Both the position numbers and the translations under genes were made by a program. A stretch of DNA of 12,152 nt from Clostridia bacterium (GTDB lineage Bacteria > Bacillota_A > Clostridia > Oscillospirales > SIG627), in contig JAFVYT010000048.1 in the NCBI GenBank assembly GCA_017508505.1, forward strand, positions 1-12,152, read 5' to 3'. The notes under the pieces are model-generated. The model saw nothing but the letters and a program-made list of their open reading frames with translations, did no database searches and was not told the origin of the DNA. Of the stretch, positions 156 through 11,785 are shown piece by piece (positions within the stretch are counted from its first letter, which is position 1; every line of letters starts with the position of its first letter).

Positions 156-1334
156 CTATTCCGGCATATTGCCGAGCATATTCTCGATGAAGATGCCGTA
201 GCCTCGGGTGGGGTCGCCCACGAGCACGTGGGTGACCGCACCGACCAGCTTTCCGTTTTGGAGAATGGGGGATCCGCTCATTCCTTGAATGATGCCGCCC
301 GTCTTTTCCAAGAGGGCGGGGTCGGTGACGTGTAGGACGAAGTTTTTCGTTTCACGGTCGGGCCCGATGATCTCCTCGATCTCGATTTCATATTCCTTTT
401 TTCCGTCGGAGTCCAGGGTGCAAACAAGGCTCGCCTTGCCCGTTTTTACCTCACCCTTCAGGGCGATGGGAACGGTGGGGGAGCGGTCCCCTTGGCAAGG
501 CAGGGTTCCGAACACCCCCGTGGAGGTGTTGGCCGAGAGGGCTCCGTAGGGGTCCTTTTCCAGCGTGCCGCGGATCTCTCCGGCCTTTCCGTTTTCCCCT
601 CGCAGGATCCCCTCGATCCGCGCTTGGCAGACCGAGCCGGATTTCAGGGGGAAGACGGCGCCGCTTTCGGAGTCGCACACTGCGTGCCCGAGTCCTCCGA
701 AGGCTCCGCTCACGGGATCGCGGAAGGTCACCGTTCCCAATCCCGCCGCGCCGTCCCGCACCCAAAGCCCCGCCTTATACCCGCCGCCGTCCGCAGAAAA
801 GGCAGGGGTCAGGGCAAGGGTCAGAGCTTCGTTTTGCCGCTTGACCGAAAGGGTCACCTCTTTCCCGTCGCTGCGGGAGACGATTTTCGCAAAGGTGGCG
901 GCATCCGAAAGGGTCACGCCGTTTGCCTTCAGAAGCAGGTCTCCCTTCTTCAGCCCTGCCGCCGCTCCGGGAGAGACGGTGCCCGCGTCGGTGCGGATTT
1001 CTCCGAGACCCGTGACGAGCAGAGCCCCGGTTTCGATCCGCAGGCCGAAGAGCTCGCCGCCGCAAATGACCTCCGCCTTGGGATAGAAATTGACCCGAAC
1101 ACTTTTGACGGGCACAAGCCCGAAGGCCATCAGGCGGTAGTCGCTGCTTTGTGTCTGTCCGCCGTCGCTTTCCTCCGGAACGAAGGAGAAGCAAAACAGA
1201 CTCTCCGGCTCGTCTCCGTCGAAGCGGCTGATGGTGTCCGGGCAAAGATAGTCACCCAGTCCGAAAAAAGAAAGAAACACAAAATAGAGAAGGAGACAAA
1301 GGGCGGCGATCCGTGCCGGTATTTGCTTTTTCAT
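156..1334 (-). CDS. spoIVB: SpoIVB peptidase (S55 family), stage IV sporulation
   Basis: In sporulating Firmicutes SpoIVB is made in the forespore, crosses into the intermembrane space and cleaves SpoIVFA. This releases processing of pro-sigma-K in the mother cell. The protein has 392 residues (B. subtilis SpoIVB about 426): a membrane anchor at about 8-25, a PDZ domain at about 108-175 (SPGAAAGLKKGD), and a C-terminal S55 protease domain. The triad is visible: His217 in GLGHAV, Asp338 in HVTDPALL and Ser353 in GMSGSPI. The Asp-to-Ser distance of 15 equals that I recall for the B. subtilis enzyme (363/378). The frame stays open to 1478, but I place the start at 1334, where GGGAG lies 7 nt upstream and the anchor begins directly. 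The gene is divergent from the 1529 gene. The usual neighbours recN (upstream) and spo0A (downstream) are not seen here, although the downstream side is cut by the window. Confidence 0.93.
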   Translation of the reverse strand: MKKQIPARIAALCLLLYFVFLSFFGLGDYLCPDTISRFDGDEPESLFCFSFVPEESDGGQTQSSDYRLMAFGLVPVKSVRVNFYPKAEVICGGELFGLRIETGALLVTGLGEIRTDAGTVSPGAAAGLKKGDLLLKANGVTLSDAATFAKIVSRSDGKEVTLSVKRQNEALTLALTPAFSADGGGYKAGLWVRDGAAGLGTVTFRDPVSGAFGGLGHAVCDSESGAVFPLKSGSVCQARIEGILRGENGKAGEIRGTLEKDPYGALSANTSTGVFGTLPCQGDRSPTVPIALKGEVKTGKASLVCTLDSDGKKEYEIEIEEIIGPDRETKNFVLHVTDPALLEKTGGIIQGMSGSPILQNGKLVGAVTHVLVGDPTRGYGIFIENMLGNMPE

Positions 1335-1373
1335 ATTGTGCTCCCATTGAAAATTGTCTTTTTCAGACGTAAT

Positions 1374-1402
1374 TAATTTGCACAAAACGGGAGAAAATAT
1401 GT
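1374..1402 (-). promoter_or_regulatory. Candidate sigma-G-type promoter for spoIVB
   Basis: Read on the minus strand, ACATA (1402-1398) is followed after 17 nt by CAAATTA (1380-1374), about 40 nt before the chosen spoIVB start. This resembles the forespore sigma-G pattern (GMATA, 17-18 nt, CATnnTA), which is what controls spoIVB in Bacillus. Both boxes have mismatches and the region is A/T-rich, so a chance match is quite possible. Confidence 0.3.
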
Positions 1403-1463
1403 TACGATAATAATGGCTTTTCAAAATAAGTCTGCCAAAGGGGAAACATTTTCCGTCATCTTC

Positions 1464-1492
1464 TTGTTTTTTTTCCAAAAGCGTGCTACAAT
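1464..1492 (+). promoter_or_regulatory. Sigma-A promoter with extended -10
   Basis: TTGTTT (1464-1469) is followed by a 17-nt spacer and TACAAT (1487-1492). TG lies at the extended -10 position (1484-1485). It is about 37 nt upstream of the ATG at 1529 and points to that gene. Confidence 0.6.
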
Positions 1493-2123: not shown

Positions 2124-2182
2124 AGAGGCAAGATAAGGGATCCGAAGAAAAAGCGATCCGCAAAAAACGAAAGGTGATACCC

Positions 2183-3571
2183 ATGACTGACGAAAGACAA
2201 GATTATACCTCCCCCGAGTCCGGCGGCACTCCTCCCGAGTCCGGCAATGCGCCCAATACGCCGAATCAGGGGCCTGCGCAGCCCTTTGACCGTCCCCCCT
2301 ACGGCGCGGGCGGCTCCTGGCAGAGCACGTCCTACTCCGGCTCCTCCTATTACGGTGGGGGCGGCTACGGCACGCCGAGCCCCGCTCCTGAAGGAAAGGG
2401 CCCGAAAAAGCCAAATCGCTCCGTAGGCTGGATCATCGGCCTTGCGCTCCTTTACGTGGGGCTCATCGGCGGGATCTTTGCCCTGATTGCCACGGGTACG
2501 CTCCGGTTTGGCTTTGTGGCCGAGGAGACGAATCAGACCGTAGAGGTCGGGGAGAAGGAGAAGGGCGAAAGGGAGACCTATGCCCCCATTGAAGAGGTGA
2601 CCTTGGAGGACGGAAGCCTCGTTCTGAGAAACGAGGATCACTCCGGGGAGGCGTTGACCGCCACCGAGCTGTACGAGAAAAACGTAGAATCCGTGGTCTT
2701 TGTGGTGGCCAACTACCGCAACGGCATCAGCACCGGCTCCGGATTTGTCATCGACGCCAAGAGCGGCTATATCCTCACCAACTATCACGTGGTGGAGGAT
2801 TGCGAGGACATCTCCGTATCCTTTGTGTCCGAGAAGGCCTACAAGGCAGAGCTTGTGGGCGGAGACGAGATCAACGACGTGGCGGTGCTCAAGGTGGATG
2901 CCGAGGGCCTGCGCGCCGTGAACACCACGAATTCCGACCATCTCAGGGTCGGCTCCGACGTGATCATCATCGGAAACCCCTTGGGCGACCTGACCTTTAC
3001 CATGACCCGCGGAATCGTTTCTGCGGTCAACCGCAAGATCAGCACCGGGGAATACAACATCAGAACCTTCCAGACCGATACCGCCATCAATTCCGGCAAC
3101 TCCGGCGGCCCTGCCTTTAATGCGGCGGGAGAGGTCATCGGCATTGCCTCCGCCAAGTATTCTGCCGCGGGGGTGGAGGGCATCGGCTTCTGCATTCCCA
3201 TCAACGACGCCATGGCGGTGGCAAGAGATCTGATCGCCTACGGCTACGTGACGGGAAGACCCAATTTCGGCATTGCCGTTTCCGATTCCTACGGGTATGA
3301 GTACTCCATCGACCAGCACGGCAGACCCGTGCGGGTGGAGGTGACCAAGGGTGCCCGGGTGGAGGAGGTCGGAAAGGATTCCTGCGCGGAAAAGGCCGGC
3401 TTGAAGGTGGGGGACATCATCACCAAGATCGACGATACCAAGATCGAGACCGCCAACGCCCTCATCAACGCTAAGACCGCCTACAAGGCGGGGGATACCG
3501 TAAAGCTGGAGGTCTACCGCGACGGTGAGACCCTGACTCTGACGGTGGTATTCGACGAATATACCCCCTGA
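2183..3571 (+). CDS. htrA: HtrA/DegP-type membrane-anchored serine protease
   Basis: This 462-residue S1C protease probably degrades or refolds misfolded proteins on the outer face of the membrane. A cytosolic tail of about 80 residues is rich in Pro, Gly, Ser and Tyr (YSGSSYYGGGGYG). One membrane helix follows at about 83-106, then an acidic linker, the trypsin-like domain at about 158-355 and one PDZ domain at about 375-458. The catalytic triad is His202 (TNYHVV), Asp232 (NDVAVLKV) and Ser307 (GNSGGPA). A GTG at 2174 would add three residues, but it lies inside the ribosome binding site AAAGGTGAT (2170-2178), so the ATG at 2183 is the likely start. The gene has its own promoter and a strong terminator at 3599, and so appears to be a single-gene unit. 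Length and architecture are usual for Firmicute HtrA. Confidence 0.94.
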   Translation: MTDERQDYTSPESGGTPPESGNAPNTPNQGPAQPFDRPPYGAGGSWQSTSYSGSSYYGGGGYGTPSPAPEGKGPKKPNRSVGWIIGLALLYVGLIGGIFALIATGTLRFGFVAEETNQTVEVGEKEKGERETYAPIEEVTLEDGSLVLRNEDHSGEALTATELYEKNVESVVFVVANYRNGISTGSGFVIDAKSGYILTNYHVVEDCEDISVSFVSEKAYKAELVGGDEINDVAVLKVDAEGLRAVNTTNSDHLRVGSDVIIIGNPLGDLTFTMTRGIVSAVNRKISTGEYNIRTFQTDTAINSGNSGGPAFNAAGEVIGIASAKYSAAGVEGIGFCIPINDAMAVARDLIAYGYVTGRPNFGIAVSDSYGYEYSIDQHGRPVRVEVTKGARVEEVGKDSCAEKAGLKVGDIITKIDDTKIETANALINAKTAYKAGDTVKLEVYRDGETLTLTVVFDEYTP

Positions 3572-3761: not shown

Positions 3762-4991
3762 ATGTTTCTTTACATAGATCCCGGTACGGGCAGTATGCTC
3801 TTTACCATTTTGGTGGGCGTGCTGGGTGCCGCCTTTTATTCCGTGCGGATGCTTTGGATCAAGCTGCGCTTCAAGCTCAGCGGAGGAAAGGCCAAGGCAG
3901 AATTGGAGAAGATCCCCTTTGTGATCTTTTCCGACAACAAGCGCTATTGGCTGATCTTTGAGCCCATCCTGCGGGAATTGGAGCGCCGCGGCGTGAACGT
4001 GGTGTACCTGACCGCCTCTCCCGACGACCCCGCTCTGACGACGGATCTGAAAAACGTAAAGGCAGAGTATCTGGAGGGCAACAGGATTTATATGCGCCTC
4101 AACTTCCTCAACGCCGCCGTGGTGCTGTCCACTACCCCCGGTCTTGACGTGTACCAGTGGAAGCGGTCCAAGGAGGTGCAGTATTACGTGCATATTCCTC
4201 ACGCCGCCAGCGAGATCATTCTGTACCGTATGTTCGGTATCGACTATTACGATGCCATTCTTCTCTCCGGGGACTATCAGATCCAAGACGTGAGAGAATT
4301 GGAGGCCCTCCGCTCCCTTCCTCCCAAGGAAATGGTCAAGGTTGGCATCCCCTATATGGACGTGATGGCAAAGCGTCTGGAGGAGAGCGGCCCCGCTCCC
4401 GAGCATCCTACCACGGTGCTGCTGGCTCCCACCTGGGGACAGAGCTCCATTTTCGGGGTGTACGGCGGTAAGATCATCGACAAGCTTCTGGAAACGGGCT
4501 ACCACGTGATCGTCCGTCCCCATCCCCAGTCCTTCGACTCCGAAAAGGAATTGATGGAGGAATTGATGAAAAAGTACCCCGAGTCCGAGCGTCTTGAGTG
4601 GAATCGGGATACGGACAACTTTGAGGTGCTCCGCCGCTCCGACATCCTGATTTCCGACTTCTCCGGTGTGATCTTTGATTTTGCGCTGGTATACGGGAAG
4701 CCCGTGATCTACACGGATCCCAAGTTTGACCTCGGATTGTACGACGCCTGGTGGATGGAGGGACACACCCTTTGGACCACGGGGGCTCTGCCCCGCCTCG
4801 GGTGCGAGCTCACCGCCGAATCCATGGAAAACATCAAGGAGCTCATCGATACCTGCCTGACGGATGCCCGCTTTGAGGAGGGCCGCCGAGAGGTGAAGGA
4901 GGAGACCTGGGCACACTTCGGCGAGGGCGCTGCCCGCGTCGCCGACTACCTTGTCGCCAAGTACGAAGAAATCGTAAAAGAGGAAAAGTAA
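3762..4991 (+). CDS. CDP-glycerol glycerophosphotransferase-like enzyme with IDPGTGS membrane N-terminus
   Basis: This 409-residue protein resembles the TagB/TagF family (PF04464), GT-B enzymes that move glycerol-phosphate or a related polyol-phosphate from a CDP-activated donor onto a lipid-linked acceptor at the inner membrane face. Family signs are HIPHAAS with His147, the LAPTWG strand (221-226), RPHP with His254, and the C-terminal ISDFSGVIFDFA block (297-308). Residues 1-40 are unlike classic TagF: the motif YIDPGTGSMLF leads into one membrane helix (about 11-31) and a basic stretch. The frame is open from 3660, but AAAAGGAGA (3747-3755) sets the start at 3762 and directly precedes the motif. 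The stop is 1 nt before the next ATG, so the two products are probably translationally coupled. Donor and acceptor cannot be read from the sequence; a sugar- or ribitol-phosphate is possible. Confidence 0.88.
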   Translation: MFLYIDPGTGSMLFTILVGVLGAAFYSVRMLWIKLRFKLSGGKAKAELEKIPFVIFSDNKRYWLIFEPILRELERRGVNVVYLTASPDDPALTTDLKNVKAEYLEGNRIYMRLNFLNAAVVLSTTPGLDVYQWKRSKEVQYYVHIPHAASEIILYRMFGIDYYDAILLSGDYQIQDVRELEALRSLPPKEMVKVGIPYMDVMAKRLEESGPAPEHPTTVLLAPTWGQSSIFGVYGGKIIDKLLETGYHVIVRPHPQSFDSEKELMEELMKKYPESERLEWNRDTDNFEVLRRSDILISDFSGVIFDFALVYGKPVIYTDPKFDLGLYDAWWMEGHTLWTTGALPRLGCELTAESMENIKELIDTCLTDARFEEGRREVKEETWAHFGEGAARVADYLVAKYEEIVKEEK

Positions 4992-4992
4992 G

Positions 4993-7773
4993 ATGACTTT
5001 TTTGGGTATTTTGGAAACTATTTTCATTGGGCCTTTGAAGCTTCTCTTTGAGATGATCTTTCAGATTGCCAATGAGTTCATTCGCCACCCCGGTGTTTCG
5101 ATTATCTTTTTGAGCCTTGCCATGAACACCCTGGTGCTTCCTCTCTACAAGAGAGCGGACGCCATGCAGGAGGAGGCAAGGGATACGGAAAATCGCCTTT
5201 CCCGCGGGGTCAACCACATCAAGCGCGTCTTCTCCGGAGACGAGCGGATGATGATCACTCAGGCCTACTATCGCCAGAACAACTACAAGCCAACGGACGC
5301 GCTCCACGGCTCGGTCTCTCTTCTTTTGGAGATTCCCTTCTTTATGGCGGCGTATCAGTTCCTGTCGAACCTTGAGATCTTAAATCGCGTTTCTCTCGGA
5401 CCCATCCGTGATTTGGCCAAGCCCGACGGGCTCATCGTCATCGGCTCTCTGACCCTGAACCTTCTGCCCATTCTGATGACGCTCATCAACGTGATCTCCG
5501 GCGCCATTTATCTGAAGGGCTTCCCTATGAAGACCAAGATCCAGCTTTACGCCATGGCCGCGTTCTTTTTGGTCTTTCTGTACACCTCCCCCTCGGGCCT
5601 TGTGTTCTACTGGACCCTCAATAACCTTTTCTCCCTTGTAAAGACCGTCTTTTATAAGATCAAGAATCCCGCCAAGGTTCTGCGGATCCTTCTGGCGGTG
5701 TGCGGTGCGGCCCTTGCCGTTTACGGCGCACTCTTCTTCCCCGGCTCTATGATGAAAAAGTGCGTGGTGGTGTTCCTCGGCCTTGCGCTGGTCTTCCCCC
5801 TTGCTTGGCATTTTGTCAAGAAGTATCTTCCCAAGAAGGAAAAGACCGACGTGACCCCCAAGCCGAACCGTCGCGCCTTCCTTCTCGGATGTCTGTTCCT
5901 GACCCTTCTGGTGGGCATTCTCATCCCCTCCTCGGTCATCGTTTCCTCCCCGCAGGAGTTTGTGGACGTCAGCGACTTCTACCATCCCCTTTGGTATCTG
6001 GTCAGCAGCACGGCGATGGCCGTGGGTACCTTCCAGGTTTGGGTGGGCGTGTTCTATTGGCTCGCCAGCCCCAAGGGTAAGGTGATCTTCACCCGTGTTA
6101 TCTGGGTCTTCTGCGGCGTGGCGCTGGTGAACTATATGTTCTTCGGCACCAACCTCGGTACCCTTTCCTCCGCTCTGAAGTACGAGGGGGGAATGGTGTT
6201 CCGTGCCATGGATTTCGTTCTGAACTTCGGCGTGCTCGCGGTTATCGCCGCCGTGCTTGTTTTCGTCTGTCTGAAATTCCCCAAGGTCATCACCGGTGTG
6301 CTTGCCACGGCCGTGGTAGCGGTAGCGGGAATGGGCGTTTTGAACGTGGTGGGGATCACCTCCTCCGTCGCACAGGTCGAGCCCACGGACACGGATGAGA
6401 TCCCTCAGCTTGACTTCTCCACCGATGGCAAGAACGTGGTGGTGATCCTGCTCGACCGCGCCATGGGCCAGTACGTGCCCTATATGATGCAGGAGAAGCC
6501 CGAGCTCAAGGAGCAGTTCCGCGGCTTTACCTATTACTCCAACATCGTCTCCCACGGCGGCTACACCAATATGGGCGTGCCCGCGGTTTTGGGCGGCTAT
6601 GATTATACTCCCGTGGAAATGAACCGAAGAAACGAGCTTTTTCTGGAGGAAAAGCACAACGAATCTCTGAAGGTGATGCCTCAGATCTTTGCGGATAACG
6701 GATACGACGTGACCCTTTGCGACCCCGTTTACGCAGGCTACCAGTGGATTCCCGACACCTCCATCTTTGAGGATATCCCAAACACCGAGACCTACATCAC
6801 CACGGGCCTCTTCGACGACGTCGTCACCAAGGAGCGCCTGAGAGAGAACAATCACCGCAACTTCTTCTGCTACGGCGTGATGAAGGTGATGCCGCTGCTC
6901 TTCCAGCGCACCATCTACTGCGACGGCACCTACCATCAGGCGGCCTCCTACGGCGGCAAGCAGACCATTGTCAGCCCCACCCGTGCGGAGGGTCTGGATC
7001 CCGACTTTATGCGGGAGTATAACTCCATCAGCCATCTGACCGAGATGACCCGCGTTACCGAGAGCGAGAAGAACAACTACCTCTTCTACTATAACGGTAC
7101 CCCCCACGAGCCCGCCTACCTTCAGGCTCCCGATTACGAGCCGAAGTATCTGGTGGACAACGCGGAGTACGATGCGGCCAACCCCAACCGCTTCACCTAC
7201 GATGGCACGAGCCTTGTGATGGTGCAGGGGGATCAGATCGCCCATTACCACGCCAATATGGCGACCCTGATGCAGCTCGGCAAGTGGTTTGACCACCTCC
7301 GCGAAAGCGGCGCCTGGGACAACACCAAGGTCGTTGTGGTTTCCGACCACGGCAGAAGCCTTTACCACGATCCCGCGATGAACATTCGCCCCGATCTGGT
7401 GCACTACGGCGACATCGAGTTCTTCTATCCCCTCCTTCTGGTGAAGGATTTCGGGGACAATGAGGAGTTCCGAACCAGCACCGAGTTTATGACCAACGCA
7501 GACGTGCCCAGCCTCGTCTTCGGAAACGGGCTCGTGGAGAATCCGATCAATCCCTTTACGGGAAACCCCATCAATATGGACGAGAAGACCGCACATCCTC
7601 AGCTCGTGATGCTTTGCGGCAAGGACGACGGCAAATACCGCGTGGACGTGAACAACGGCAAGCAGTTCCTGCCCTCGATGTGGGCCTCCGTGGAGAAGGA
7701 TATGAAGGATCCGGACAACTGGGAGTTCTACCTGAAGGAAACGGTGCTTACGGAGCACGCACTTCCCAACTGA
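4993..7773 (+). CDS. YidC/Oxa1-like insertase module fused to extracellular alkaline-phosphatase/sulfatase domain
   Basis: The 926 residues fall into three parts. Residues 1-222 match the YidC/Oxa1/Alb3 core: an amphipathic start, a helix at 35-51 ending LVLPLYK, a cytosolic helical loop (52-105), the helix containing LLEIPFFMAAYQFL, a helix at 147-173, and a closing pair with SPSGLVFYWTLNNLFSLV. Residues 228-455 add seven helices. Residues 478-910 form an alkaline-phosphatase-superfamily domain like LtaS or sulfatases: Asp488 (ILLDRAMG), candidate nucleophile Thr525 (GGYTNMGVP), His705 (GTPHEP), and Asp785/His786 (VVSDHGRS). Twelve helices with an outside N-terminus put KK/RR-rich loops (275-294, 359-364) in the cytosol and the phosphatase domain outside. 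There is no signal peptide, and the conserved groove Arg of YidC is Asn45. GAGGAA lies 7 nt before the ATG. It probably acts with the upstream transferase on an envelope phosphopolymer (inference). Confidence 0.9.
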   Translation: MTFLGILETIFIGPLKLLFEMIFQIANEFIRHPGVSIIFLSLAMNTLVLPLYKRADAMQEEARDTENRLSRGVNHIKRVFSGDERMMITQAYYRQNNYKPTDALHGSVSLLLEIPFFMAAYQFLSNLEILNRVSLGPIRDLAKPDGLIVIGSLTLNLLPILMTLINVISGAIYLKGFPMKTKIQLYAMAAFFLVFLYTSPSGLVFYWTLNNLFSLVKTVFYKIKNPAKVLRILLAVCGAALAVYGALFFPGSMMKKCVVVFLGLALVFPLAWHFVKKYLPKKEKTDVTPKPNRRAFLLGCLFLTLLVGILIPSSVIVSSPQEFVDVSDFYHPLWYLVSSTAMAVGTFQVWVGVFYWLASPKGKVIFTRVIWVFCGVALVNYMFFGTNLGTLSSALKYEGGMVFRAMDFVLNFGVLAVIAAVLVFVCLKFPKVITGVLATAVVAVAGMGVLNVVGITSSVAQVEPTDTDEIPQLDFSTDGKNVVVILLDRAMGQYVPYMMQEKPELKEQFRGFTYYSNIVSHGGYTNMGVPAVLGGYDYTPVEMNRRNELFLEEKHNESLKVMPQIFADNGYDVTLCDPVYAGYQWIPDTSIFEDIPNTETYITTGLFDDVVTKERLRENNHRNFFCYGVMKVMPLLFQRTIYCDGTYHQAASYGGKQTIVSPTRAEGLDPDFMREYNSISHLTEMTRVTESEKNNYLFYYNGTPHEPAYLQAPDYEPKYLVDNAEYDAANPNRFTYDGTSLVMVQGDQIAHYHANMATLMQLGKWFDHLRESGAWDNTKVVVVSDHGRSLYHDPAMNIRPDLVHYGDIEFFYPLLLVKDFGDNEEFRTSTEFMTNADVPSLVFGNGLVENPINPFTGNPINMDEKTAHPQLVMLCGKDDGKYRVDVNNGKQFLPSMWASVEKDMKDPDNWEFYLKETVLTEHALPN

Positions 7774-7814: not shown

Positions 7815-8747
7815 TTATTTCAGTGCCAGCTCCACGAGGGTGCGCGTCAGAGTGGGAAAGTCCATCCCTGCGGCCCGTGCCGCATCAGGGAAGAGGCTGG
7901 TGGCGGTCATTCCGGGAGCGGTGTTGATCTCGATGACCTGCACCTCGCCCTTTTCGTCCAGCATCATATCCACTCGGGCATAGCCCCGACAGCCCGTGGC
8001 AAGGTAGGCCCTTTGCGCTACCTCACGTGCGGTCTTTTCGGCTTCGGGGGGGATGGCGGCGGGAATGATGTGACGGCTTTTTCCGGGGGTGTACTTGGAG
8101 TGGTAGTCGTAGTATTCCCCGTCGGCACGGATCTCGATGACGGGAAGCACCGTTTCTCCTCGGTTCCCCATCACGGGGACGGTCAATTCCGCGCCGGAGA
8201 GAAATTTCTCCGCCAGGAGATTGTCCTTGTAGGCGAGGAGCGCGCGGAAGGCGGCGGGGGCGTCCTCTTTTTTTCGTACGATCTCGGTTCCGATGCTGCT
8301 GCCCTGACGGCAGGCCTTCAGAACGAAGGGGATCCCGAGGGTCTCGATTGCCTCCTCGGCACTTTTGACCGGGTCGAGGGCCTCGTCCCAAACGAAGTCC
8401 AGAAACTCCGGGGTGGGAACGCCGCTGAGGGTCAGCACCTTTTTGGTCATGATCTTGTCAAGACAAAGGGCGCTTGCGGCGATGCCGGGCCCCGTGTAGG
8501 GGATGCCGAGCCACTCCAGCAGCCCCTGAATGGAGCCGTCCTCACCGCCAATGCCGTGCAGGGCGATGAAGGCCACGTCGGGACGGAGTGCCTCGATCTC
8601 GGAAAGGGGTCGCTCCGCAGGGTCGAAGAGGGTGACCCGAAAGGGCCCCTCGGCGAGGGCGTCTGCTACGGCCTTGCCGCTTCGCAGGGAGACCTCTCGC
8701 TCCAGGCTCTTTCCGCCTGCCAGAACGAGCACGTGCTTTTGATCCAT
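7815..8747 (-). CDS. ddl: D-alanine--D-alanine ligase
   Basis: This 310-residue ATP-grasp enzyme joins two D-alanines for the peptidoglycan stem peptide in the cytosol. It has the N-terminal GGKSLEREVSLRSG motif (11-24, Glu16 positioning substrate), HGIGGEDGSIQG (64-75), the glycine-rich KACRQGSSIG (144-153), and the metal-binding end RVDMMLDEKG to VIEINTAPGMT (258-281). The omega loop reads YYDYHSKY with Tyr219 where E. coli DdlB has Tyr216. This fits D-Ala-D-Ala rather than the D-lactate ligases of vancomycin-resistant or lactic types. The usual KPA of the ATP loop is KAC here, a mild variation. GAGG lies 6 nt before the ATG. It is the last gene of the queT operon, 26 nt after the hydrolase gene, and ends in the shared terminator. 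Confidence 0.96.
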   Translation of the reverse strand: MDQKHVLVLAGGKSLEREVSLRSGKAVADALAEGPFRVTLFDPAERPLSEIEALRPDVAFIALHGIGGEDGSIQGLLEWLGIPYTGPGIAASALCLDKIMTKKVLTLSGVPTPEFLDFVWDEALDPVKSAEEAIETLGIPFVLKACRQGSSIGTEIVRKKEDAPAAFRALLAYKDNLLAEKFLSGAELTVPVMGNRGETVLPVIEIRADGEYYDYHSKYTPGKSRHIIPAAIPPEAEKTAREVAQRAYLATGCRGYARVDMMLDEKGEVQVIEINTAPGMTATSLFPDAARAAGMDFPTLTRTLVELALK

Positions 8748-9396: not shown

Positions 9397-9882
9397 TCAT
9401 TCAAAATGTTTTTGGAAGGGAAGGAGCGTGCGGTACAGCAGGGCACCCAGCCCCATGGCGCTGACTGCCTCCCCCACGAAAAAGGCCCCCGCCAGAATCA
9501 GAAAGCCCTCTTTGCCGAAGCCGTATACAAAATACAGGATGGGGGGGATGATCATAGTATTGGCGATCACGGGACAAAGAAGCGCCCAAAGAGGCTTTTT
9601 GCGGAAAACGTAGGTTCCCACGGCACCAATGAGCGTGGCAACGGAGCCGAAGATCACGTCGGGGAGTGCCGCACCGCAAATCAGATTCGCCGCAAGACAC
9701 CCGCAAAAGAGCCCGGGCACCGCCGCAGGAGTGAGAAGGGGGAGGGCACACAGGGCTTCGGAAAGGCGAAACTCGAAGGGGCCCACCGCCAGCCCGAAGA
9801 CGGCGGATAGCAAGGTCAGGACGGCGTAGAGCGCGGCGATCATAGAGGCCGCCGCGAGGTGCTTGATTCGGCTTTTCTTCAT
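9397..9882 (-). CDS. queT: QueT-family ECF transporter S component (queuosine precursor uptake)
   Basis: The 161-residue membrane protein has about five to six helices and the QueT (DUF988) hallmarks: FRLSEALCALPLLTPAAVPGLFCGCLAANLI is present in part at residues 37-66, followed by DVIFGSVATLIGAVGTY. QueT is the substrate-binding subunit of an energy-coupling-factor importer and brings in queuosine precursors such as preQ1 or queuine; EcfA and EcfT would be encoded elsewhere. The frame is open far upstream, but that part only mirrors kdgA. AGGAG (9893-9897) with 10-nt spacing fixes the start at 9882. The preQ1-I-like leader independently supports the function. It is first in a three-gene operon with the hydrolase and ddl. 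Confidence 0.88.
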   Translation of the reverse strand: MKKSRIKHLAAASMIAALYAVLTLLSAVFGLAVGPFEFRLSEALCALPLLTPAAVPGLFCGCLAANLICGAALPDVIFGSVATLIGAVGTYVFRKKPLWALLCPVIANTMIIPPILYFVYGFGKEGFLILAGAFFVGEAVSAMGLGALLYRTLLPFQKHFE

Positions 9883-9892
9883 TACTGAAATT

Positions 9893-9945
9893 CTCCTAGT
9901 TTTGTTTTGGGTGAGGATGGTCACGAACTCACCGCTCCGAAGAGC
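9893..9945 (-). promoter_or_regulatory. preQ1-I-like riboswitch in the queT leader, preceded by UUCG hairpin
   Basis: On the minus strand the leader begins with a small hairpin GCTC-TTCG-GAGC (9945-9934). Next comes stem GGTGAG (9933-9928), loop TTCGTGACCATC (9927-9916) and CTCACC (9915-9910), then the A-rich tail CAAAACAAAACTAGGAG, which contains the ribosome binding site of queT. A short G/C stem, a loop starting UUC with a later G and C, and an A-rich tail ending in the Shine-Dalgarno sequence match the preQ1-I layout as I remember it from B. subtilis queC and T. tengcongensis. The loop-tail pseudoknot is weak here (G9922 with the C of ACTAGG, and C9925 with a G of AGG), so this could be a divergent version. 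Control would be at translation, with ligand hiding the ribosome binding site. Confidence 0.6.
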
Positions 9946-9951
9946 CCAAGT

Positions 9952-9980
9952 ATTGTACCACAAACGCACGAAATTTGCAA
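9952..9980 (-). promoter_or_regulatory. Sigma-A promoter of the queT operon
   Basis: On the minus strand, TTGCAA (9980-9975), a 17-nt spacer and TACAAT (9957-9952) form a near-consensus promoter. Transcription would begin near 9945, at the foot of the UUCG hairpin, giving a leader of about 60 nt. Confidence 0.75.
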
Positions 9981-10038
9981 GGGGAGAAGCCAAGGAAGGG
10001 AAAAAGAGTGAGTTTTTGGGGAAAACTTCCATATTGAC

Positions 10039-10085
10039 TTGACTAAAATTGCCAAAAGGGTGTAAAATCGTAGAGTAAATACGAT
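10039..10085 (+). promoter_or_regulatory. kdgA promoter with overlapping candidate operator
   Basis: TTGACT (10039-10044), 18 nt and TAAAAT (10063-10068) form a sigma-A promoter; a second TTGACT at 10034 overlaps it by one base. A perfect inverted repeat ATCGTA-N7-TACGAT (10067-10085) starts in the -10 box and covers the probable start site, a classic repressor position. The 19-bp span suits a dimeric regulator such as GntR, LacI or IclR types known to control KDG genes. Which one is unknown, since no regulator is encoded in this window. Confidence 0.55.
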
Positions 10086-10116
10086 CTCCGCCACGAGCGG
10101 AAAAAGGAGTGTTATT

Positions 10117-10758
10117 ATGAAAAAACTGATGGAACGGGTGCAGGCCCTCGGCGTGCTCCCCGTCATTAAGATCCAAAATGCGGACCACGCGGAGAAGCTT
10201 GCCGCCGCTCTCATTGCAGGGGGCTTGCCTGCGGCTGAGGTCACCTTCCGCACCGACGCGGCAGAGGAGGCCATTTCCAGAATGCATCAGGCATACCCCG
10301 AGCTTCTCATCGGCGCAGGCACCGTGCTTACCACCGAGCAGGCAGACCGTGCCATGGCCGCCGGTGCGACCTTTATCGTTTCCCCCGGGCTCAATCCCAA
10401 GGTGGTCGGCCACTGTGTGGAAAAGGGCTACCCCATCATCCCCGGCATCTGCACCCCCTCCGAATTGGAGTGCGCTCTCGGCTTCGGCCTTGAGGTGGTG
10501 AAGTTCTTCCCTGCAGAGGCGGCAGGCGGTCTTCCTATGATCAAGGCGATGAGCGCTCCCTACGGTGCCGTTCGCTTTATGCCCACCGGCGGAATCAACC
10601 AGAAAAACATTCTCTCCTATCTTGCCAATCCCAAGGTGCTCTGCTGCGGCGGTAGCTGGATGGTGCCTGAGGACAAGCTGATGGCAGAGGATTTCGGCGC
10701 CATTGAGGCTCTCGTGAGAGAGGCCGTGGAGCTGGTAAAAAGCGGAAAAGGAGAATAA
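10117..10758 (+). CDS. kdgA: KDPG aldolase (2-keto-3-deoxy-6-phosphogluconate aldolase)
   Basis: This 213-residue class I aldolase splits 2-keto-3-deoxy-6-phosphogluconate into pyruvate and glyceraldehyde-3-phosphate in the cytosol. It is a single TIM barrel with the expected residues: Glu41 and Arg45 in EVTFRT, GAGTV (66-70), SPGLNP for the substrate carboxylate, and Lys129 in VVKFFPAE as the Schiff-base lysine (Lys133 in E. coli Eda). The phosphate site is PTGGI. Length is typical. AAGGAG (10103-10108) lies 8 nt before the ATG. A small CCGC/GCGG hairpin at 10088-10100 sits just before the ribosome binding site. It is 4 nt from kdgK, so together they use KDG derived from uronates or pectin. 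The family also cleaves 4-hydroxy-2-oxoglutarate. Confidence 0.95.
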   Translation: MKKLMERVQALGVLPVIKIQNADHAEKLAAALIAGGLPAAEVTFRTDAAEEAISRMHQAYPELLIGAGTVLTTEQADRAMAAGATFIVSPGLNPKVVGHCVEKGYPIIPGICTPSELECALGFGLEVVKFFPAEAAGGLPMIKAMSAPYGAVRFMPTGGINQKNILSYLANPKVLCCGGSWMVPEDKLMAEDFGAIEALVREAVELVKSGKGE

Positions 10759-10762
10759 AGCT

Positions 10763-11785
10763 ATGAAAAGAATCGTAACCTTCGGCGAATTGATGCTTCG
10801 CCTTGCCCCCGAGGGATATCTGCGCTTCGTGCAGTCCGACCGCCTTCAGGCTACCTTTGGCGGCGGTGAGGCCAACGTGGCCGTTTCCCTTGCCAATTTC
10901 GGCTTGGATGCCGCCTTCGCCACCAAGCTTCCCACCCACGAGATGGGTCAGGCCGCGGTGAATTCTCTGCGCAAGTTCGGTGTGGACACCTCCACCGTGG
11001 TGCGCGGCGGGGATCGCGTGGGCATCTACTACTGCGAAAAGGGCGCTTCTCAGCGTCCCTCCAAGGTCATTTATGACAGAGCCTACTCTGCCATTGCCAT
11101 GGCAAAGAGAGAGGACTTCGATTGGAACGCCATCCTTGACGGGGCCGATTGGTTCCACTTCACCGGCATCACTCCCGCTCTGGGAGACAACGTTGCCGAG
11201 ATCTGCCTGGACGCCCTGAAGGTCTGCCGCGAGAAGGGCATCGGCGTTTCCTGTGACCTGAACTACCGCAAGAAGCTTTGGACCCGTGAGAAGGCAGGGG
11301 AGGTTATGGCCACCCTGATGCCCTACGTCAACGTGTGCATCGCCAACGAGGAGGATGCAGGGGACGTCTTCGGCATCCGTGCCAGCGGCACCGACATCAC
11401 CAAGGGCTCCCTTTCCCACGAGGGCTACAAGGAAGTGGCAAAGGCGCTTGCCGATCGCTTCGGCTTTGATAAGGTCGCCATCACCCTTCGCGGCTCCATC
11501 TCCGCCAACGACAACAACTGGGCGGCGATGCTCTACGACGGCACCGACTTCTTCTTCTCCAAGAACTACCTGATCCACATCGTGGACCGTGTGGGCGGCG
11601 GCGATTCCTTCGGCGCAGGCCTCATCTATTCTCTCCTCAACGACTACTCCTCTCAGGCCGCCATTGAGTTTGCCGTAGCCGCCTCCTGCCTCAAGCACTC
11701 CGTAGAAGGCGACTACAACATGGTATCCGTTGCCGAGGTACAGGCATTGGCGGGAGGAGATGGCTCCGGTCGCGTACAGCGCTAA
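10763..11785 (+). CDS. kdgK: 2-keto-3-deoxygluconate kinase (PfkB family)
   Basis: This 340-residue ribokinase-type enzyme phosphorylates 2-keto-3-deoxygluconate to KDPG, the substrate of the aldolase encoded just before it. Family signs are the N-terminal FGELMLRLAP, the sugar-binding FGGGEANVA (32-40), SCDLNYRKKLW (163-173), and the C-terminal DRVGGGDSFGAG (275-286) with catalytic base Asp281. The usual GAGD anion hole reads GGGD. The sugar specificity comes mainly from the gene pair, since PfkB sequences alone are poor guides. AAAAGGAGA (10746-10754) overlaps the end of kdgA and lies 8 nt before the ATG. No terminator follows directly; hairpin repeats begin at the stop codon and a true terminator appears only at 12067. 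Confidence 0.92.
   Translation: MKRIVTFGELMLRLAPEGYLRFVQSDRLQATFGGGEANVAVSLANFGLDAAFATKLPTHEMGQAAVNSLRKFGVDTSTVVRGGDRVGIYYCEKGASQRPSKVIYDRAYSAIAMAKREDFDWNAILDGADWFHFTGITPALGDNVAEICLDALKVCREKGIGVSCDLNYRKKLWTREKAGEVMATLMPYVNVCIANEEDAGDVFGIRASGTDITKGSLSHEGYKEVAKALADRFGFDKVAITLRGSISANDNNWAAMLYDGTDFFFSKNYLIHIVDRVGGGDSFGAGLIYSLLNDYSSQAAIEFAVAASCLKHSVEGDYNMVSVAEVQALAGGDGSGRVQR

Follow-up and report, generated by a model that had tools for sequence, protein, structure and literature searches.

We have analyzed a stretch of 12,152 nucleotides from a Clostridia bacterium (contig JAFVYT010000048.1 of the assembly GCA_017508505.1), hereafter the window, in which a single gene joins a YidC/Oxa1-type membrane domain to an enzyme domain of the alkaline phosphatase (AP) superfamily. 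The gene upstream of this fusion, which we call the partner, codes for a membrane hairpin followed by a PF04464 domain. The fusion starts one nucleotide past the stop codon of the partner (TAAGATG), a spacing that suggests translational coupling of both genes. The features of the pair are the following.

3762..4991, plus strand: partner gene, 409 aa, N-terminal membrane hairpin and PF04464 domain (CDP-alcohol:poly-ol phosphotransferase fold; CDP, cytidine diphosphate); Pfam Glyphos_transf, E=6.9e-13 on a longer frame.
3771..3794, plus strand: YIDPGTGS motif, residues 4-11, in the membrane hairpin.
4993..7773, plus strand: fusion protein, 926 aa, in a single open frame.
4993..5658, plus strand: YidC/Oxa1 core, residues 1-222, with five transmembrane (TM) helices and a cytosolic helical hairpin.
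5125..5127, plus strand: N45, aligned pairwise with R366, the groove arginine of E. coli YidC.
5668..6372, plus strand: seven extra TM helices, residues 226-460, from the AlphaFold2 model.
6409..7743, plus strand: AP-superfamily domain, residues 473-917, extracytoplasmic.
6454..6456, plus strand: D488, predicted metal ligand, kept in 79/79 aligned fusions.
6565..6567, plus strand: T525, predicted catalytic nucleophile, Thr in 79/79 aligned fusions and in three aligned AP genes of the second family described below.
7105..7107, plus strand: H705, predicted active-site histidine, kept in 79/79.
7345..7350, plus strand: D785-H786 (DHG motif), predicted metal ligands, kept in 79/79.

The predicted structure reproduces the YidC fold that the initial annotation had placed in the N-terminal part, and the seven helices that follow it were also anticipated there. 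Helix count and loop charges are broadly in agreement with an inside-to-outside path through these helices and with the AP domain lying outside the cell. For the seven middle helices no known fold was matched or excluded, the fold lists having not tested these helices alone. The AP fold contains the metal-site Asp, Asp-His and His together with the Thr nucleophile, roles assigned by analogy with the family, and the residues singled out beforehand (Asp488, Thr525, His705 and Asp785/His786) turned out to be the invariant ones. A plain formylglycine sulfatase, defined by the motif C/S-x-P-x-R, could be ruled out because this motif does not appear around T525, where the next residue is Asn in 74/79 sequences and P530 is found in 74/79. 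When the structure of the AP domain was compared with known ones, phosphonate monoester hydrolase, sulfatases, PbgA, EptC, LtaP and MCR-1 all fell within approximately 2.5 Z units, which does not mark the domain as specifically LtaS-like.

The fusion is widespread. Of 7993 proteins scored in a search, 4421 matched at E<=0.001, and the 120 matches listed were 914-944 aa long, with 99-100% query coverage and 55-59% identity; the number of true fusions is known for these 120. A genome scan confirmed at least 478 stretches, so the join of two genes by the assembly, which had been considered as a danger, is ruled out by protein homologues and genome loci with the same fusion. We have read the best 80 loci, which together with the window make the 81 loci over which neighbors are counted below. 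The fusion cluster comprised 95 open reading frames (ORFs) in these 81 loci, a few of them fragments, and tandem copies exist. The hosts were Clostridia metagenome-assembled genomes (MAGs), Mediterraneibacter agrestimuris, Hominifimenecus, Butyrivibrio, Clostridium punense, a Roseburia MAG and Schwartzia succinivorans, a member of the Negativicutes, and many of the loci stem from gut and rumen samples. In one class sample of 291 genomes the fusion was present in at least 9, a lower bound, as the tallies of this sample scored up to 3 candidates per genome and counted the centre genome. The 79-row alignment had 85 invariant columns, of which 42 were within residues 1-226, a quarter of the length. 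Shorter versions of the fusion (approximately 860-880 aa) with a shorter middle region were found in four loci (L127-L130) and are the earliest to diverge in the tree of these fusions; in another locus (L042, 10001-12797) the fusion seems to be broken up, one ORF having 806 aa and the other 186 aa. The sources name some of these relatives "YidC/Oxa1 family membrane protein insertase", which is probably misleading.

The partner accompanies the fusion almost everywhere. A relative was detected (phmmer, one partner sequence) in 75/81 loci and in 0/20 control regions. Here and for the other neighbors one seed sequence per family was used at E<=1e-8, and the 20 control regions, each 20 kb long, came from ten of the genomes that had supplied case loci, the case loci measuring 4.5-22.8 kb; the seed of the fusion itself matched 1/20 controls. 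In the first clustering the directly upstream ORF on the same strand was the partner in 66 of the 80 loci having an upstream ORF, while in five further loci, the window included, a long ORF of the opposite strand was listed directly upstream instead. The YIDPGTG-type motif was within the first 90 aa of 67/73 partner ORFs; an unrelated YIDP[GS] string was seen in one control, in a frame containing stops. Besides, H147 and the motif R252-P-H254-P, which presumably correspond to the catalytic His of TagF, were invariant in the 67/67 partners and in the 24/24 domains of the second family that could be aligned, an invariance from which the partner is predicted to be active. In eight loci (L001, L013, L021, L044, L054, L055, L071 and L079) we noticed by eye a small multi-pass protein, resembling a CPBP-type (CAAX) membrane protease, two genes ahead of the fusion, on the same strand and directly before the PF04464 gene.

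A search for PF02096 in 12 genomes revealed a second family (type II, the one of the window being type I) in which YidC is fused to PF04464 (L093 and L094). With the L093 protein as query, 7998 candidates were scored and 2550 matched at E<=0.001; the domains are known for the 120 matches listed (the query among them), of which 110 had both and 10 had YidC alone. Its PF04464 part and the window partner shared 28% identity over 361 aa (pairwise E=5e-41). In the 291 genomes type II appeared in at least 4 (5 with G258, whose locus L126 was dropped after its gene proved a canonical yidC lying within the dnaA-rnpA region). All five type II loci that were read (L108, L109, L123, L124 and L125) contained a YIDPS hairpin, and two of the five were also matched by the type I fusion seed. 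Three of them had a clear AP gene by Pfam (L108, E=2.2e-7; L124, E=3.2e-8; L123, E=6.4e-14), with the catalytic Asp, Thr, His and Asp-His kept. At L123 the YIDP hairpin, a TM segment and the AP domain are in one 756-aa frame that adjoins YidC-PF04464, and this AP gene is 27% identical to the window over 150 aa (E=5e-8). Thus, type I pairs YIDP-PF04464 with YidC-AP, and type II at L123 pairs YIDP-AP with YidC-PF04464; the full swap of parts is seen at this one locus and the YidC-PF04464 fusion at many. A reciprocal fusion is a classical sign of cooperating parts, and this one points to one machine in which a cytosolic transferase using a CDP-linked donor (CDP-X) works with a membrane unit of the Oxa1 type and with an AP transferase on the outside. 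Phosphonate genes are also found here, L109 carrying a PntC-type gene and the type II gene of L125 sitting in a phosphonate operon. Beside YidC-PF04464 we observed by eye a signal-peptidase-like gene in L108 (8424-8927), L109 (13601-13996) and L123 (5252-5713).

Further evidence comes from the genes around type I fusions. Of the 81 loci, 44 encode a LicC-like nucleotidyltransferase and 35 a choline-type kinase. Among transporters, an EamA type occurs in 21 loci, an NCS1 permease in 6 and a BCCT type in 5; the aminotransferase part of a PntC-type protein was present in 5, a LicD-like gene in 2 and a phosphoenolpyruvate (PEP) mutase in 1, and each of these families in 0/20 controls. Many further loci, like the window, have none of them close by. 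Family names come from representative sequences (Choline_kinase PF01633, E=6.6e-18; NTP_transf_3; EamA; BCCT). The fusion of Schwartzia (L048) is accompanied by genes for PEP mutase, phosphonopyruvate decarboxylase and a nucleotidyltransferase and, as judged by eye, by an aminotransferase-like gene; the two divergent short type I copies of L127 adjoin a nucleotidyltransferase fused to PEP mutase (E=1.5e-119). Among the genomes with a choline-type kinase at the fusion locus, 28 were searched for LicD (28 of 35 such loci) and it was not found in 15, namely 13 of 25 genomes in one set plus those of L041 and L047; the genome of L026 has it. The incompleteness of MAGs may explain some of these absences, but L041 and L047 are strain records. 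Three loci (L016, L033 and L040) have a gene of approximately 590 aa that joins a winged helix, a nucleotidyltransferase and a choline kinase (domains read in L033, the others assigned by length and clustering), possibly a self-contained maker of CDP-choline with its own regulator.

The partner, the second, reciprocal family of fusions and the Lic and phosphonate genes of related loci are the strongest evidence that we are dealing with one machine, an idea whose observed basis comprises the domains and their order, their conservation, the gene coupling, the headgroup-activating neighbors that roughly half of the related loci have, and the second fusion. We consider it reasonably likely that this system moves activated phospho-headgroups onto the cell surface. 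The fusion and its upstream partner would be two halves of one membrane machine, by which a headgroup (choline-phosphate, 2-aminoethylphosphonate or perhaps ethanolamine- or glycerol-phosphate, depending on the species) would pass from a cytosolic donor linked to CDP or cytidine monophosphate (CMP) to a surface glycan or lipid. The PF04464 protein would take the headgroup from CDP-X and load a membrane acceptor on the inner side, the AP domain, with its Thr nucleophile and metal site, would hand it on outside, and the Oxa1 unit would join both sides, either as a docking platform or as a path for the polar headgroup of a lipid donor. More tentatively, the Oxa1 domain may have turned from an insertase into a membrane-crossing part, with the PF04464 protein charging a lipid from CDP-choline or CMP-aminoethylphosphonate inside, the groove passing the headgroup and the AP domain transferring it to a glycan outside; this detailed version we consider less likely than not, and the Oxa1 part may also be a scaffold only. 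Besides the protein insertion for which the Oxa1 superfamily is known, YidC, Oxa1 and Get1 are reported to scramble lipids in vitro, and in simulations via the same groove (PMC10491306); by analogy a path for lipid headgroups through the Oxa1 unit of the fusion is plausible. As anatomy and genetics the system is confirmed, its mechanism is what we infer, and substrate and activity are predictions from sequence. The initial annotation had already proposed an Oxa1 fold serving a phospho-transfer reaction, and this part stands; it had missed the co-operonic partner, the Lic and phosphonate neighbors and the second fusion family.

Several observations weigh against such a machine. The PF04464 match was absent in 6/81 loci, and in the four short type I loci the partner was found in only 2 and the kinase or the LicC-like gene in none. 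In Schwartzia a LicD gene directly upstream replaces the PF04464 gene, of which a relative is found elsewhere in the locus. Regarding type II, the AP gene of L109 is weak (Pfam E=0.002) and gave no direct sequence match to the window, in L125 Pfam recognised none, and a choline kinase was found in none of the five loci. A LicC-like gene was not nearby in 37/81 type I loci, the window among them; some of these are on short contigs, many are not. The window itself has no choline or phosphonate gene, and no LicA or LicC, in its 12 kb; what surrounds the pair is ordinary:

156..1478, 2174..3571, 7815..8747, 9397..10413 and 10117..11785: SpoIVB peptidase, HtrA-type protease (by domain content), D-Ala-D-Ala ligase, QueT transporter, 2-keto-3-deoxy-6-phosphogluconate (KDPG) aldolase and PfkB-type sugar kinase.

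LicD is present in 13/28 of the kinase-locus genomes, some of which may use the ordinary LicD route as well, and CDP-choline could feed phospholipid synthesis instead. Finally, the 80 loci do not count as independent: they were the closest relatives that the scan gave, and some share a genome.

The best of the alternatives is a teichoic-acid polymerase, in which the PF04464 protein would prime or extend a glycerol-phosphate chain inside and the AP domain would extend or modify it outside in the manner of LtaS, with phosphatidylglycerol as the source of glycerol-phosphate; the choline genes would act on the same polymer rather than as a donor pathway. PF04464 is after all the CDP-glycerol phosphotransferase family, the Foldseek list includes both LtaP and LtaS, the VIA list includes LtaP, and the frequent lack of a nearby LicC-like gene fits as well. 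Besides, in the genome of L047 (G007) the two YidC-AP fusions are the only PF00884 matches, and it seems to be without a separate LtaS. However, other Sulfatase-family proteins are present in 6/7 genomes, LtaP does not score higher than EptC, PbgA or choline sulfatase in the structure comparison, and the Schwartzia locus has LicD in the very place of the PF04464 gene. The recurrent and informative operon neighbors activate choline-type and phosphonate headgroups, pointing to CDP-choline or CMP-phosphonates and not to the building of glycerol-phosphate as in LtaS. We regard the polymerase as unlikely.

Less likely still is a dedicated insertase, that is, an Oxa1 part that goes on inserting membrane proteins, perhaps as a chaperone for the hairpin protein or for its enzyme partner; the fusion would only ensure that they assemble together. 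The clear YidC fold with its cytosolic hairpin speaks for it, and the short YIDP hairpin may resemble a possible YidC substrate. Position 45 was Asn in 79/79 type I fusions (alignment A2), Ser by eye in one early-branching short copy (L127a) and Lys in 28/28 type II, so a positive charge is kept at the groove of the latter; the 12 canonical-size YidCs had K in 4, R in 3, Y in 3, N in 1 and Q in 1. Thus, 5/12 canonical-size clostridial YidCs (L085, L087, L089, L090 and L091) had Tyr, Asn or Gln in place of the groove charge, and by this alignment the strict conservation of that charge, stated in PMC8920935, fails in these Clostridia. The argument that loss of the groove arginine proves the lack of insertase activity was dropped for this reason, and the loss is compatible with insertion, all the more as E. 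coli YidC is functional without R366 if residue 517 is hydrophilic or aromatic, whereas Streptococcus mutans YidC2, with W at the place of W207, requires its arginine (both from PMC8920935). Against an insertase, a canonical-size YidC is found separately in 11/12 related genomes; in the remaining one (L003, a 1.6-Mb MAG) the fusion was found and no canonical-size YidC. The window fusion gene lies among other genes, outside the rnpA-yidD-yidC-jag cluster. The YidC parts of type I group in a single clade (support 100/100), set off by a branch of 2.55-3.11 changes per column. They have N45 and Y52 in 79/79 and an insertion with D56, characters that the canonical YidCs lack except for one N at position 45. 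In the best trees type II YidCs are a clade among canonical clostridial YidCs and type I is on its long separate branch; we do not claim that the two families recruited YidC independently, since an approximately unbiased (AU) test does not reject type I and type II as one clade (p=0.363). The Oxa1 unit of the fusion is probably not the protein insertase of the cell.

That the domains were fused by chance and the Oxa1 part is an inert anchor we consider very improbable: LtaS-type AP-fold transferases do work with unrelated TM domains, but about half of the invariant columns fall in the Oxa1 part and two different fusion families join an Oxa1 domain to parts of the same system.

In hundreds of loci, from Clostridia and their relatives, an Oxa1-type domain is fused to two different parts of what appears to be one phosphotransferase system. 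This offers a natural test of whether the Oxa1 groove serves lipids or headgroups. If our proposal is true, it would give the Oxa1 superfamily an enzyme-bound role, of which we know no earlier case. Neither fusion was recognised in the published literature covered (titles and abstract openings, with subscription journals largely outside).

Compared with YidC/Oxa1/Alb3 (PF02096), the fusion retains the five-TM core and adds seven helices and an AP enzyme, has N45 for the groove arginine, forms its own deep clade and is not beside rnpA. With the AP-superfamily phosphotransferases of the envelope (LtaS/LtaP, EptA/EptC/MCR-1 and PptA, to which GacH also belongs) it has in common the outside AP fold, the Thr nucleophile and the metal-site residues, but it has approximately twelve TM helices, five of them Oxa1, and a linked cytosolic PF04464 partner. 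LtaS has an N-terminal domain of five TM helices directly ahead of its AP domain, in contrast to the five YidC helices plus seven more found here. Like the TagF/Bcs3-type PF04464 proteins, whose fold family it shares, the partner has the conserved His motifs, but it is small and carries an N-terminal membrane hairpin; its matches to solved structures were weak (best E=0.00068, on a different scale from the pairwise value to YidC-PF04464 given above). Features of the phosphonoglycan PntC pathway, which makes CMP-aminoethylphosphonate, are seen next to some fusions, where nucleoside triphosphate (NTP)-transferase/aminotransferase proteins or a PEP mutase are encoded. The neighborhoods described for PntC have LicD-like phosphotransferases or glycosyltransferases, and YidC is unmentioned in the main text (PMC6697681).

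Another comparison is with the choline-phosphate pathway Lic-1 (LicA, LicB, LicC and LicD), whose choline-type kinase, LicC-like gene and EamA-type transporter are shared by many fusion loci, which differ in having an AP-fold enzyme and, in all but two, no LicD-like gene. According to PMC10434233, there is no current evidence of Lic-1 and PptA coexisting in one species; in many of the fusion loci, genes of a Lic-type donor pathway stand in one operon with that of an AP-fold enzyme. The system is a candidate type of answer to the step left open there, namely which donor pathway supplies choline-phosphate to an AP-fold transferase on the outside. For gut bacteria, surface choline-phosphate and aminoethylphosphonate may also matter in host recognition. 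If the proposal holds, this would be a new way of decorating bacterial surfaces with choline-phosphate, in which a Lic-type donor pathway is joined to a PptA-type outside transferase.

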